From Gammaproteobacteria bacterium (lineage in GTDB: Bacteria; Pseudomonadota; Gammaproteobacteria; Eutrophobiales; Eutrophobiaceae), in contig SCUJ01000011.1 of assembly GCA_004297165.1 (NCBI GenBank), positions 1 to 64,000 of the forward strand: a stretch of DNA of 64,000 nucleotides, given 5' to 3'. Numbering within the stretch: position 1 is the stretch's first letter; each line of letters begins with the position of its first letter. Below, piece by piece: positions 1 to 10,136 of the stretch. Under the pieces are notes generated by a model. The model was given only the letters and a program-made list of their open reading frames with translations. It was not told the DNA's origin and did no database searches. The translations under genes and the position numbers were made by a program.

Positions 1-323
1 GAACCTTTCCCCAGGACCTCGAACTGGTGTTCTCCGACGGGGTAGGAGGCCAGGGCCTGTTCCAGGGGATTCTCGGATTGCGCCAGCTCTTTGAGGATCT
101 TGAGCTTCGTTTCCTCCGTGAAGGAAATTGTTCCTGGATAAGACAGGTACAAACTATCGATCCCCAGCCGTAAGATCCGGACGCTCCCCCCTGGAATGCA
201 ATTAGCAGGTGCTGTGTTACAGGGGAGCGCACCTGCGGCCCGGCTTCGCTCCCCGCGCCCCGGCTGCGCCGGGGACGGGGGGAGACTCCCGCCGAGCGAC
301 GGTATTTTCTCTGAATCTTGCAT
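1..323 (-). CDS. Partial uncharacterised protein (5' end only, runs off the window)
   Basis: Reverse strand is open from ATG (CAT at 321-323) to base 1: MQDSEKIPSLGGSLPPSPAQPGRGERSRAAG...VRILRLGIDSLYLSYPGTISFTEETKLKILKELAQSENPLEQALASYPVGEHQFEVLGKG. Absent from the ORF track because it has no stop in the window. Confidence 0.6.
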   Translation of the reverse strand, partial: MQDSEKIPSLGGSLPPSPAQPGRGERSRAAGALPCNTAPANCIPGGSVRILRLGIDSLYLSYPGTISFTEETKLKILKELAQSENPLEQALASYPVGEHQFEVLGKG

Positions 324-431: not shown

Positions 432-1226
432 TTATGTCCCGACGGCTTTCTGTCGCCTCTGAATGAATTTCTTTACGGCGGAGAACGGATCCAATCCATC
501 GGCGGAAAATACTTGCAACGTATCCACCAGAACATCGGTGATTTGTTCATAGGATAAATTATTCAGACCGGCAGCTTGATCCAAGATCAACGCCGCCATT
601 CTGGCATCATCCAGATCTTCTTTCGGCCTTCTGGGACGGGTCTTGGTAATAGCCTTGGATAGCTGATGATAAAAGTCCCAATCCTGTCGCATCGTAGCGA
701 AAGCCATATGCTTGGCGACAGTAGGACAGGAAAGAACTACCGGATCGATCGATACCGCCTGAAATAACGCTTCCGCATTCCCTTCTCGAACCTTTTCGAT
801 CAGTTCATTAATAGAAAAATGATACTGGCGGATCGATTCAAAATTATAGAGACAGGCCATGCACAGAGAAAGAGTGATTCCTTTCTCTTCCATGGACAAC
901 GCCATGAAATCAAGGGGAGATTCCGGTTCAGTCTCCAACCAAGCAATCGCGGCTTCATTGGGATCCAATTCTTTACCAAATTCTTCTATACGATCGACCT
1001 CCAAACAGCGTAGAAGCAGGACAGTAAATGGAAGAAAAGGAAGCTCGTAGAAATACGCCCAGAAAAAGGGAATATTTTTAAACTCTTCGCTGTTCGTTGC
1101 CTTTTCCAGGGCGACATCAGTGACATCTGCCTTCTCTAGGTTTGCCTTATGGACGAAGGCAAAGAGTCTTTGCAGTTGAACGCGGGAGAGTTTTCCGAAT
1201 TCCTTTTCCATATTTGCACATATCAC
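432..1226 (-). CDS. Uncharacterised protein, ~264 aa
   Basis: Long ORF, last gene of the minus-strand accessory operon, abuts the upstream stop. No family recognised. Confidence 0.7.
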   Translation of the reverse strand: MICANMEKEFGKLSRVQLQRLFAFVHKANLEKADVTDVALEKATNSEEFKNIPFFWAYFYELPFLPFTVLLLRCLEVDRIEEFGKELDPNEAAIAWLETEPESPLDFMALSMEEKGITLSLCMACLYNFESIRQYHFSINELIEKVREGNAEALFQAVSIDPVVLSCPTVAKHMAFATMRQDWDFYHQLSKAITKTRPRRPKEDLDDARMAALILDQAAGLNNLSYEQITDVLVDTLQVFSADGLDPFSAVKKFIQRRQKAVGT

Positions 1227-1658
1227 TCATATAGTTGGGCTATAAACTAATCTAGTTTGGAAATTATTGTTGGTAATGTCGGCTAATGCCTGCTGTTTCT
1301 GCTTTGAGGATTGTTTATCTAGCAGTTTATATTCGCACTCCAATTCAGGAATCAAACAATGGCCAGAAAGCTGATCATCTTTTGGATCAGGGACGAGAGT
1401 TAGGCCAATTGAGGTAATTTCTCGAACTTGAAGACGTATTACATAATAGCCTGTTTCACACTGACCACTACGAGCGAGATCTAATGCTGTGGTAAATAAC
1501 TCTCTAAATAATGAGATCCCACCAGTATCCCTATTATTCGGACGGAATGCCAGCCTGGTTACAGGTCTTGAAAGTGTAAGTTTTATGTAATCTATTTGAT
1601 TGGGGATTCTTCTTAAGACATATTCAACATCTATGGGAATGTCATTTGGGGAGACCAC
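1227..1658 (-). CDS. Uncharacterised protein, 143 aa (FRPNNRDTGGISLF / GHCLIPEL motifs)
   Basis: ORF in the accessory operon, directly adjacent to the 432-1226 CDS. Confidence 0.7.
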   Translation of the reverse strand: MVSPNDIPIDVEYVLRRIPNQIDYIKLTLSRPVTRLAFRPNNRDTGGISLFRELFTTALDLARSGQCETGYYVIRLQVREITSIGLTLVPDPKDDQLSGHCLIPELECEYKLLDKQSSKQKQQALADITNNNFQTRLVYSPTI

Positions 1659-1694
1659 AATTCATCGTCATAAAAGTAATTGATATCACCTTTA

Positions 1695-2141
1695 TCAAGC
1701 TGCTAGTAATAATGTATCCCAAGTGGCATGGGATTCAGGTTTGTGATTATCGTCTAGAAAATTTTCCCAACTTACATCGTGAAACGAAGTAGAACCATCG
1801 CTATTAGTGATCATGTATTCGCCTCGCCCTGGAGAACCGGATTCCAATTCCAAAATGTAATAAGGATATTGCCATTCGATAATGATAGCCCCATCAGTTG
1901 AAATTGTAGTTCTATCAGGTGGAGGCATAAACTTGTATTTGAGAAGGCTCAAATATCTAACCATTGAAGAAATTAGCACTTCACTCGGAGTATCGGCACC
2001 TTCTCCATCCCAATTTTCTTCAATATTTCTAAAATTTGAAATATTGTGGAACACGATCTTCCATCGTTGTTCATTACTTACTAAATCAAACGCAGAATCA
2101 ATCAGACCGTCAGTTGAATTCGATAATATTTGATCTGTCAT
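1695..2141 (-). CDS. Uncharacterised small protein with ENWDGEGADTPS motif
   Basis: ORF 1695-2156; preferred start MTDQIL at 2141 gives an ATGA overlap with the upstream stop at 2138, implying translational coupling. Confidence 0.7.
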   Translation of the reverse strand: MTDQILSNSTDGLIDSAFDLVSNEQRWKIVFHNISNFRNIEENWDGEGADTPSEVLISSMVRYLSLLKYKFMPPPDRTTISTDGAIIIEWQYPYYILELESGSPGRGEYMITNSDGSTSFHDVSWENFLDDNHKPESHATWDTLLLAA

Positions 2142-2938
2142 GATCTTCTTCTCCAATATTTATGCGCACTTTCAGACGTTATTTCAGTAAACGTGTTCAC
2201 AATTGCTTCATGACCAAGGAATAAACCCCTTTGATAATCCTGGCTCGCATTGATTGGTCCACGACTTGTAAAGTCTGCGCGAATAATCTCTGGTTCATCT
2301 TGAGATTTTACAACCGCATGGTTCAGTTTAATATGTAATCTACCTGTATTTCCTTGAAGATTAACAGCCCACTCCATATTTAGCGTATCTAACCTTTTTT
2401 TATAAATATCCAATCGCGGAATCGATAATCCAGGGAATATCTCCGTCCAGTCATCGATATTATTCCAAAGTTCGCCTTTGAATATATGATTTACATATGT
2501 TATCTCCCATTGGTTAAATTGTAGCTCTTCGCCACCAGCATCCCTGACGAAATCTTTAAATTTATCAAAGTAATTCTGAAACTCACCATAAATACTTTCA
2601 AAATCCATATAATCTTGGTTATCCTTCTTTCTCCAATTCAATATGAATCTTGTATTCTGAATTTGAATCATTCGGTCATCGGTTTTTCTTACAATCTGAT
2701 GACGTTCAGGGGTAGGCATAGTTTGGACAGTCAATTGAGGAATAATCCCTCGTTTCTTCGATTCGAAGTTTTCAATTTTTGACTCTAAGCGAGGAACTTC
2801 ATTTATATGCGTCCATTCCTCATCAAGATAAGATTTCCAAAACCAACCAGCATGCGCATTAGTAAAAAATGCCAACTCCGCGAATTGAACTCCAATGACA
2901 CGCTCAACTACAGGAGGATTATCGTACTTTGGATCCAT
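2138..2938 (-). CDS. TIGR04255-like family protein
   Basis: N-terminus MDPKYDNPPVVERVIGVQFAEL resembles the PPvvE..vgvqF start of TIGR04255; 266 aa. Confidence 0.7.
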   Translation of the reverse strand: MDPKYDNPPVVERVIGVQFAELAFFTNAHAGWFWKSYLDEEWTHINEVPRLESKIENFESKKRGIIPQLTVQTMPTPERHQIVRKTDDRMIQIQNTRFILNWRKKDNQDYMDFESIYGEFQNYFDKFKDFVRDAGGEELQFNQWEITYVNHIFKGELWNNIDDWTEIFPGLSIPRLDIYKKRLDTLNMEWAVNLQGNTGRLHIKLNHAVVKSQDEPEIIRADFTSRGPINASQDYQRGLFLGHEAIVNTFTEITSESAHKYWRRRS

Positions 2939-3286
2939 GAATTCTTATGAGCACTAGATTAGCTAATAGGTTATAAATATTATGTATCTTATTTATTATT
3001 AATGATATCTGCCATGATATAACACTCAATTTATAGCTAATGAATCATTTTTATTATGGAACATTGGGACGAATGATGAAATAGGTTTTACCAATATATA
3101 GAAAATCGCAAATGAACCCTCGGTAATAGGAAGTTAATTAGTTACCTGCAATGGTATTATTAATTAGAACTGTGCTCAATTGAGATAGTTTGACCGGTAA
3201 TTGAACCCCAATTGAAACACGTTTTGGCACAGGGCACGTGCCGTAAGTGGCTGATAAACTTACTTAGTTAAGATTAAAATTGTGCC

Positions 3287-3331
3287 CTCATAACGCTGGG
3301 GTCGGTGGTTCAAGTCCACCCATAGCCACCA
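3287..3331 (+). pseudogene. 3' fragment of a CAU-anticodon tRNA (Met or Ile2), probable attachment-site remnant
   Basis: CTCATAA anticodon loop, CGCTG, GGGTC variable region, GGTGG-TTCAAGT-CCACC T-arm, CATAGCC acceptor strand, ACCA. No pairing 5' half directly upstream (GTGCC cannot pair with CGCTG). Confidence 0.75.
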
Positions 3332-3370
3332 AATCCAAAGGACGAAATAGAATAATCACGGAGGAACATC

Positions 3371-4132
3371 ATGGAAACAACCACTTATCCACGGCAGGAT
3401 ATCCCGGTCACAGCGACACATGCAGTATGCGACCCGCTGGCCCAGCAAGTAAAAATTCTATATTCCCAATCGGTCATCACATTTTTATTCCCGCTGCTCG
3501 CTGCGCTTTGTATCGTGGCGCTCTTGCATGATCAAGCAGATCGGAGATTCCTGGCGGGCTGGCTTATAGCGATATTTCTGCACGGGACATCGCGTTATTA
3601 CCTGCTTTGGCGCTATTTTCACGGCTCCGCCGTGACCGAGCAATCCAGCGCATGGATGAACAGATTCCTGCTTGGCGCATTCCTTTCGGGAGGTCTGTGG
3701 GGATACGCGGGTATCTTGTTAATCCCGTACCGATCGACGGAAGCGATCGCATTCACTCTGAATAATGGTCTGCTGCTACTCATGATCTGCGGCCTGGTCG
3801 CCGGGTCCGTAATCTCCTACGCCATAAATATCCGGGTAACGCTTTGTTATTCCCTGCCGGCGCTGCTGCCTCCAGCCCTGCATCTGATCTCGATTGGCGA
3901 TCGCTACAACAGCGCATTCGGCGGGTTGCTGCTGCTTTATTCTCTCTACATACTGGTGGCGGCGATCCGGATGAACCGGCAACTGGTTTATTTCCTGAAC
4001 ATGGAACACCGGGAACGGGAGTTGGCGCAAAAATACGGGAATTTACAGCGCCTGTACGAATCCCTGCGGCGTCGCGTCAAGCAAGTGAAGACCTTGCGCA
4101 AGGACGCGCAGCCAATTCAAGATAGATTCTAG
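3371..4132 (+). CDS. Multi-pass membrane protein resembling the N-terminal sensor region of GGDEF/kinase proteins, without an output domain
   Basis: Several hydrophobic segments followed by a basic, coiled-coil-like C-terminus (RERELAQKYGNLQRLYESLRRRVKQV). Confidence 0.7.
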   Translation: METTTYPRQDIPVTATHAVCDPLAQQVKILYSQSVITFLFPLLAALCIVALLHDQADRRFLAGWLIAIFLHGTSRYYLLWRYFHGSAVTEQSSAWMNRFLLGAFLSGGLWGYAGILLIPYRSTEAIAFTLNNGLLLLMICGLVAGSVISYAINIRVTLCYSLPALLPPALHLISIGDRYNSAFGGLLLLYSLYILVAAIRMNRQLVYFLNMEHRERELAQKYGNLQRLYESLRRRVKQVKTLRKDAQPIQDRF

Positions 4133-4470
4133 TCGCGAATCTTGCGGTGCAGTTGCGGAACGCTGGAGGGATCGCCCTTAATCATATAACGCTTCTCCCG
4201 ATCCATGGCGGTGACATTCTCATAGACCCCGGCGTCGCGCTTTACCAGCTTGGTGAATCCCGCATTCTTCAACTCGCTGTTGAATACGGTTACCGTGACG
4301 GCCGGCGCTGTTTTCATGACCTTGTGGACCGGCGCCAGTGGGTCTGTGTCCCCCAACGGGTAGCCGGTGACATAGCAAAGTTCCAGCCAGGTGCCCAGGG
4401 CGGCGCCTATCGGGTGATTGACCTCGATGGTCTGACCATTGGCTTCACAGTAATAATCGTAGGCGGGCAT
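4129..4470 (-). CDS. FmdB-like (degenerate zinc ribbon) small protein
   Basis: From the internal Met at 4470: MPAYDYYCEANGQTIEVNHPIGAALGTWLELC..., resembling the MPTYDYxC start of FmdB-type proteins. The track start at 4575 overlaps the upstream HD gene. Confidence 0.6.
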   Translation of the reverse strand: MPAYDYYCEANGQTIEVNHPIGAALGTWLELCYVTGYPLGDTDPLAPVHKVMKTAPAVTVTVFNSELKNAGFTKLVKRDAGVYENVTAMDREKRYMIKGDPSSVPQLHRKIRD

Positions 4471-4492
4471 GACGTTGGCAGGGGCTGTTAAT

Positions 4493-5128
4493 CTATAACG
4501 TCTCCGAATCATCCTCCAACATGATCCGCAGATTGTTTCTGGTGGATTTGTGAAAAACGGAATCGCCTTTTTCATCGTAGTAGTCGCTGGTCAGATGCAG
4601 TTCCTCACGGAGGAACTCCTCGACCTTTTCGACAGCCATCCTTTTCCAGGAGTTCCAGGAGATGGTGGATCCGGTTTGCTGCTCCAGTTCCTTTTTGAGA
4701 TCCAGGGTATTTTTCTTGAAGATCCGGTAATCCGCGGCGAGTTCGGAGAGATCCGCCGCCCGTACAGCCTTGTCCTCATTGGTGGCGCAATGGGCATCCA
4801 CATGAGTACAGAGGATCGCGGCCTTGATCCTTTCCAGTTTCTCCTTGACGATGCCGTTGCCCGAGAGTTGCTCAACCGCCAGATCGGCGGAATAGGCCTC
4901 CTTCGATGAATAACCCTTGGCGACATGATTCTCGTTGTATCCCGCATCGTGATACAGCAGGGCGTAATAAACGATATCCTCCTGAATCGCCACGTGTTCC
5001 TTTTTGCAACGCTCAACGATCTCATTCCCTTTCCTGATGACGGTCCTGATATGCCCGAAATTGTGATAGGGCAGATCGTCGCTATAGAGCGTAAAGGCCA
5101 GATTTTCCATGTATTCATCGCGCATCAT
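4493..5128 (-). CDS. HD-superfamily metal-dependent phosphohydrolase-like protein
   Basis: YHNFGH, YHDAGY, CTHVDA motifs typical of predicted HD hydrolases. Confidence 0.75.
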   Translation of the reverse strand: MMRDEYMENLAFTLYSDDLPYHNFGHIRTVIRKGNEIVERCKKEHVAIQEDIVYYALLYHDAGYNENHVAKGYSSKEAYSADLAVEQLSGNGIVKEKLERIKAAILCTHVDAHCATNEDKAVRAADLSELAADYRIFKKNTLDLKKELEQQTGSTISWNSWKRMAVEKVEEFLREELHLTSDYYDEKGDSVFHKSTRNNLRIMLEDDSETL

Positions 5129-9303: not shown

Positions 9304-10136
9304 AAAATAATCGGAAACATTCAAAACTTCCCGCCTGGATCGCCTCCATCAACAAACTGTTCCGCAGCGCGCCGAAGGACCGGCAGACCCTCCTGGAATT
9401 GCTGCGACAGTGCGAGACTACCAACCTGCTGGATCCCGATGTCCTGATCATGCTCGAGGGGGCATTGCATGTCTCCGACATGCGGGTCAACGACATCATG
9501 GTACCCAAGGTGCAGATGGACATCATCGCCTACGATACCGATCCCGGGGATCTCATCAAGGCCGTGGTCGCCTCCGGACACTCGCGCTTCCCGGTCATCG
9601 GCGAGGATCCGAACGACGTCATGGGCATCCTGCTGGCCAAGGATCTCCTGGCGTATTTCGCACAGCCGCATACGGGGAGCTTCGATATCAAGGATGTGAT
9701 GCGCCCGGCGATATTCATACCCGAGAGCAAACGCCTGAACGTCCTGTTGCGGGAATTCCGGTCCAGCCGCAATCACATGGCGATCGTCGTCGATGAGTAT
9801 GGAGTGACCGGACTGGTCACGATCGAGGACATCATCGAGGAGATCGTGGGCGAGATTGAGGACGAGCACGACTTCGAGGAGGAAGACAACATCCGCCAGC
9901 ACGGGGTCAATCGGTATACGGTCCGGGCGATCACACCGATCGAAGAATTCAATGCGCGTTTCGGCGCCGCCCTGAGCGACGCGGAATACGACACCATCGG
10001 CGGGCTGGTCGTCAATGCCTTCGGACACCTGCCGAAACGGGGCGAGTCCATCGATCTGGCCGGTTTTCACATCAAGGTCCTGCGCGCGGATCGGCGCCGC
10101 GTCCAGCTATTGAAGTTCACCAAAGGTGAAGGTTAA
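9300..10136 (+). CDS. ybeX: CBS-domain CorC/HlyC-type transporter-associated protein
   Basis: MVPKVQMDIIAYD, VVDEYGVTGLVTIEDIIEEIVGEIEDEHD. Confidence 0.93.
   Translation: MKNNRKHSKLPAWIASINKLFRSAPKDRQTLLELLRQCETTNLLDPDVLIMLEGALHVSDMRVNDIMVPKVQMDIIAYDTDPGDLIKAVVASGHSRFPVIGEDPNDVMGILLAKDLLAYFAQPHTGSFDIKDVMRPAIFIPESKRLNVLLREFRSSRNHMAIVVDEYGVTGLVTIEDIIEEIVGEIEDEHDFEEEDNIRQHGVNRYTVRAITPIEEFNARFGAALSDAEYDTIGGLVVNAFGHLPKRGESIDLAGFHIKVLRADRRRVQLLKFTKGEG

Follow-up and report, generated by a model that had tools for sequence, protein, structure and literature searches.

A three-gene cassette with a TIGR04255 protein, related to the candidate system PDC-M32, as cargo of a small tRNA-Met integrative element

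Closest described systems

PDC-M32, a phage-defence candidate represented in PADLOC by the models PDLC04574-76 (M32A) and PDLC04578-79 (M32B), is reported as a hypothetical system in prophages (PMC12429752), in the one paper found to name it. In several genomes we found the PDC-M32 pair between hsdM and hsdS. Our literature search found no experiment on anti-phage activity of PDC-M32, and its standing as a computational candidate only was counted against the defence reading considered below. The protein family TIGR04255 (sporadTIGR04255), the identifier of which was not found in the literature searched, includes members with HTH and 'HDCDI' proteins or with PIN nucleases encoded downstream. 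Small integrative elements and phage satellites bearing defence cargo are likewise a known kind.

We analysed a window of 64,000 nucleotides, the start of contig C5 in a gammaproteobacterial genome of 3.53 Mb and 13 contigs, in which a gene of the TIGR04255 family is followed by two further genes in a compact cassette (P1-P2-P3, or genes A-B-C). P1 (gene A; positions 2138-2938, minus strand) encodes a 266-aa protein that scored 56.6 bits against NCBIfam TIGR04255, above the curated cut-off of 30 and over profile positions 1-251 of 252, so that the family membership proposed in the preliminary description of this DNA holds over the full length. Unlike other TIGR04255 members, P1 belongs to a divergent 'NWRK' subfamily with genes B and C downstream. 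Its AF2 model is confident (pLDDT 93.2, pTM 0.90) and resembles two copies of a TBP/helix-grip-type unit, with weak Foldseek matches (best E 8e-3). Elsewhere in the family, TIGR04255, an HTH protein and a 'WRQGD...HDCDI' protein form a recurring operon (L049, L051, L053, L054, L062, L065, L076); for the one member scanned, Pfam, NCBIfam and PADLOC all gave nothing.

The cassette has the same gene order as PDC-M32, a B-domain gene followed by a C gene, and differs from it in that the B domain is encoded apart from TIGR04255, in a gene of its own, and that no restriction-modification (RM) genes are adjacent. P3 matched the PDC-M32B models weakly and over most of the model (PDLC04579, 3e-5; PDLC04578, 0.0019), and P1 and P2 had no PADLOC match at E values up to 1. 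Filing the window cassette as PDC-M32 was rejected because none of its proteins matched an M32A model. The PDC-M32A models do match relatives of P2 at the C-terminal ~110 positions, and M32A (C-terminal part) and M32B match the B and C profiles that were built from loci selected by P1. These profile matches make P2 a homologue of the C-terminal domain of M32A, and P3 one of M32B. The TIGR04255 profile gave no match to the N-terminal part of M32A, the place of which is taken here by TIGR04255; in locus L082 this part consists, by eye, of TPR-like repeats. Because the N-terminal part of M32A differs from TIGR04255, B-C is the core that both systems have in common, and the partner preceding it is the variable component.

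The position of PDC-M32 between hsdM and hsdS, and a locus (L099) in which A-B-C is followed by a specificity subunit, would suit a modification-dependent or DNA-targeting module, in which A and B would serve type I RM-like machinery as a specificity/adaptor pair and C would be an accessory or anti-restriction protein instead of a toxin. We regard this as improbable, as RM genes are absent beside the cassette in the window element and in most of the 78 loci described below.

Gene content and boundaries of the cassette

Four minus-strand open reading frames, at positions 2138-2938 (P1), 1695-2141 (P2), 1227-1658 (P3) and 432-1226 (P4), make up the block that had been presented as a single four-gene operon. 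P1 and P2 (gene B, encoding a 148-aa 'WDGxGA' protein) share 4 nt in the ATGA overlap noted at the outset (2138-2141), and P2 and P3 (gene C, encoding a 143-aa PDC-M32B-like protein) are 36 nt apart. The zero gap claimed between P3 and P4 requires P4 to begin with the GTG at 1226. In alignments, its homologues agree with an ATG at 1211, which leaves a gap of 15 nt and gives P4 the extent 432-1211. The terminator after P4 is present as a GC-rich hairpin with a T run on the minus strand, 3' of P4 at positions 361-382, and looks like an intrinsic terminator. A pattern scan calls this hairpin on the plus strand, and it is probably bidirectional.

The block had further been described as AT-rich and tightly coupled, and both statements were confirmed for the first three genes. 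Their G+C contents are 0.372 (P1), 0.376 (P2) and 0.391 (P3) against about 0.6 for the genome. P4, at 0.46, belongs to a different unit, and its homologues lie beside rep and int genes with unrelated cargo. The four-gene operon was rejected on the ground that P4 accompanies rep and int in three elements with cargo unlike P1-P3. What had been taken for one unit is a three-gene cargo cassette, A-B-C, plus one element core gene, P4. The sequence comparisons give good support to an arrangement in which a small integrative element carries the three-gene cassette as cargo and P4 is part of the element core. The feature is larger than first described, as the block forms the right end of this element.

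A small integrative element at tRNA-Met

The mobile context proposed for the block was supported by an attachment repeat, a tyrosine integrase and an HTH gene. The window starts at a contig end and inside a gene (N-terminal part at positions 3-323, minus strand; G+C content of 0.60) that we take to be rep-like from residue patterns and that had no Pfam model match. Its reading frame extends into contig C4 (L005:7967-9077), where an intact tRNA-Met(CAT) lies beside a tyrosine integrase gene (PF00589, 1.4e-35), a gene for a small HTH_17 protein and the rep-like gene, which reaches the contig end. The 3' part of this tRNA, from the anticodon to CCA, is repeated in the window at positions 3284-3332 (plus strand; 98% identity over 49 nt) and forms the right attachment repeat. 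With an integrase and the tRNA 3' end directly repeated on either side, the region has the characteristics of a tRNA-targeted integrative element, in the order tRNA-Met, int, HTH, rep-like gene, P4, cassette and tRNA 3'-end repeat.

C4 ends in the same 120 bp with which C5 begins, and the rep-like reading frame runs across them, from which we infer that the two contigs join; across this join the element would be about 5.7 kb long. A second copy of int and rep (rep 96% identical) is located next to tRNA-Arg at the end of contig C1, which could in principle also be joined to C5. C4 is the likely partner because the attachment repeat on C5 matches tRNA-Met. The copy on C1 (L006:7598-9959) is a second element of the family in the same genome, with int, HTH and rep at tRNA-Arg; it shows no cargo, since C1 stops within the shared 120-bp segment. 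Outside the tRNA-Met element, the window encodes a protein with a below-cut-off HD-domain match (4493-5128), which adjoins a zinc-ribbon-like open reading frame (4129-4575).

Recurrence, transfer and neighbourhood of the cassette

Scanning GTDB genomes with an alignment of the P1 subfamily yielded 78 loci, 51 of which have B and C directly downstream of P1 in the same order (53 with the final profiles). The B and C profiles were built from part of these 78 loci, and P2 and P3 scored 35 and 40 bits, respectively, against versions built without them. Profiles were needed because a single-sequence search with P2 in 299 genomes of the phylum was near-empty, with two weak matches only. B was immediately upstream in 10/10 loci that had been selected by C or M32B alone, and B or C occurred in none of 33 control loci. 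In an unselected sample of the class, 28 TIGR04255 loci included eight with B and five with C. Recurrent co-occurrence had been proposed as a check, with genes that do not co-occur elsewhere as the outcome that would speak against a module; the P1-P2-P3 order was found across many phyla. Judged by profile matches and gene order, the cassette is a conserved, ordered unit.

Its distribution is sporadic: TIGR04255 was detected in 23/229 genomes of the class (about one in ten) and C in 10/299 genomes of the phylum. In the P1 tree, the protein from this gammaproteobacterial host nests inside a Planctomycetota clade with 100/99 support, which indicates horizontal transfer. P1 and P2 had no match in plasmid and phage records. 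The P1 subfamily as a whole was found in one of 72,556 plasmid records and in none of the viral contigs or phage records searched. A phage-structural role, which had been named as a finding that would overturn the proposed module, is therefore unlikely, and the near-absence from plasmids makes a plasmid-addiction role a poor fit.

Enrichment in defence islands, suggested as a further check, was not evident, as in other genomes the cassette is flanked mainly by genes of ordinary metabolism. Counting the cassette flanks alone, 142 genes in 51 loci gave few matches to defence models (AbiJ-like, one specificity subunit, PDC-S01, mad3 and DpdF) and mostly metabolic Pfam matches; for the flanking-gene families these figures refer to 25 of 71 matched families, among the matches listed. 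The mostly ordinary neighbours oppose a simple defence reading, and a role in defence or as a toxin-antitoxin system is therefore something that we infer.

The same neighbours favour an accessory regulatory or housekeeping-like module, in which A-B-C sense a metabolite or nucleic acid and control a process other than phage infection, with the presence in an element being incidental. The absence of phage copies and near-absence of plasmid copies of the subfamily are consistent with such a role, as is the weak likeness of the predicted P1 fold to ligand-binding helix-grip or TBP domains. We nevertheless consider it unlikely in view of the sporadic distribution, the horizontal transfer of P1, the homologues inside type I RM loci, the sharing of the cargo slot with RM genes and the occurrence of PIN nucleases as third gene in sister operons, the last two of which are described below.

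The third gene as a putative effector

Where loci of the P1 subfamily lack C, the third gene encodes a PIN-domain protein (seven loci) or a 'TQxCDL...EHLSQAFARFFMRVGLP' protein (ten loci), and the type of gene in the third slot changes at least six times on the P1 tree. PIN proteins are usually nucleases. Their presence at this position in sister operons suggests that the third gene is the effector, and P3 is accordingly read as probably the effector of the window cassette. A conserved 'TQGD...MTQxCDL...PPYREHLSQAFARFFMRVGLP' protein follows TIGR04255 in ten loci (L091, L092, L097, L098, L100, L104, L124, L133, L158, L159), usually with a variable protein between the two.

The preliminary description had recognised no function in these proteins, and this is borne out. 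Sequence searches with the A, B and C profiles against solved structures gave no credible match. The AF2 model of P3 is good (82.8 pLDDT, 0.79 pTM) and offers a weak indication of fold. Its Foldseek matches at ranks 1-18 all belong to the ADP-ribosyltransferase superfamily, with KptA/Tpt1 at the top, at a best E of 0.47 and TM scores of at most 0.39, none of them significant. A viral structure library gave a similar picture, with RNA 2'-phosphotransferases among the named matches. The residues R16, S49 and H100 are nearly invariant across the C family and are kept in P3, as seen in the alignment, and a conserved arginine at alignment position 82 of the family is a T in P3. The modelled fold of P3 and the polar residues R16, S49 and H100 hint weakly at the superfamily (KptA/Tpt1, DarT); P3 differs in being much smaller and in having no conserved glutamate. 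The P3 profile matched neither KptA nor RES in a comparison of low power, in which KptA and RES likewise failed to match each other. We offer an ADP-ribosyltransferase-like effector as a lead, suggested by the model and somewhat doubtful.

Sister elements and putative function

Homologues of P4 occur in other genomes of the class Gammaproteobacteria, and a homologue of the rep-like gene occurs in the same family. P4 had no Pfam or PADLOC match above cut-off, and a sequence search against solved structures found no credible relative. In all three loci examined (L171, L172 and L173), the P4 homologue lies beside rep and int, and the cargo, in the same slot as the cassette, is unrelated to P1-P3. 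At tRNA-Met, with repeats 6.5 kb apart, the L171 element carries an AriA/OLD-like AAA_15 ATPase, closest to AriA, and a CoiA-like protein. The L172 element (tRNA-Arg, 8.7 kb) carries a PDC-S02-like PD-(D/E)XK protein (nuclease) and other genes, and the L173 element (tRNA-Phe, 7.0 kb) a restriction set of two C5 DNA methylases and an HNH endonuclease. Since P4-rep-int recur with unrelated cargo in these sister elements, P4 belongs to the element core and lies outside the cassette; since the cargo of the sister elements is restriction-modification or other defence-type, the P1-P3 cassette occupies a slot that is used for defence-type genes.

The elements share with the small integrative elements and phage satellites already known to carry defence genes a tRNA target, a tyrosine integrase, an HTH gene, a rep-like gene and a variable cargo slot with defence-type genes. 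They differ in their small size of only about 5.7-8.7 kb and in the P4 core family, and on general inspection neither a relaxase nor a phage packaging gene was noticed. The slot of this very small element family, with its RM or other defence-type cargo, is a convenient target in the search for new systems.

Against this background, we propose that P1-P2-P3 is a conflict module between elements, an abortive defence or toxin-antitoxin-like system carried as element cargo. A conflict role is the most likely function, with a probability of about one in two. The toxin-antitoxin-like form is suggested by the gene order and by the sharing of the third slot with PIN nucleases. P1, with its tandem TBP/helix-grip-like fold, may sense or bind a ligand or nucleic acid; P2 may act as an adaptor and restrain P3; and P3 would be a small effector, perhaps a minimal ADP-ribosyltransferase or KptA-like enzyme that uses R16, S49 and H100. 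Release of P3 upon infection or loss of the element would lead to modification of nucleic acid or protein and arrest growth.

A role confined to element maintenance, with P3 as a toxin that P1 and P2 hold back and stabilisation of the integrative element as its sole purpose, would be in line with the tight arrangement of three co-directional genes, the last of which encodes a candidate small effector, with their location on a small mobile element and with the PIN toxins that relatives have as third gene. Most copies are chromosomal and have no recognisable element alongside, and sister elements of the same family do without the cassette, so that such an addiction module appears very improbable.

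The conflict reading can be extended to a rather unlikely but broader proposal, in which B-C would lie at the centre of a modular immune or toxin-antitoxin family, widespread and so far undescribed, with interchangeable sensors and third-slot effectors, and C would be a minimal enzyme of the ADP-ribosyltransferase fold. The sensor modules of this tentative family would be TIGR04255, the M32A N-terminal domain and TPR-like repeats. TIGR04255 itself gains a testable context, as part of a three-part cassette whose last two parts are also found in the candidate PDC-M32 and whose third slot can hold PIN proteins.

Two minor observations concern the flanks of the sister elements. The tRNA-Phe attachment repeat of L173 is present in three copies (1800-1898, 2873-2971 and 9891-9989), which suggests tandem accretion of elements. 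Directly outside the L172 element, at positions 706-846, lies a short tandem array with a 38-bp unit (...TAAGACCTGACCCCGTGATTCG...).
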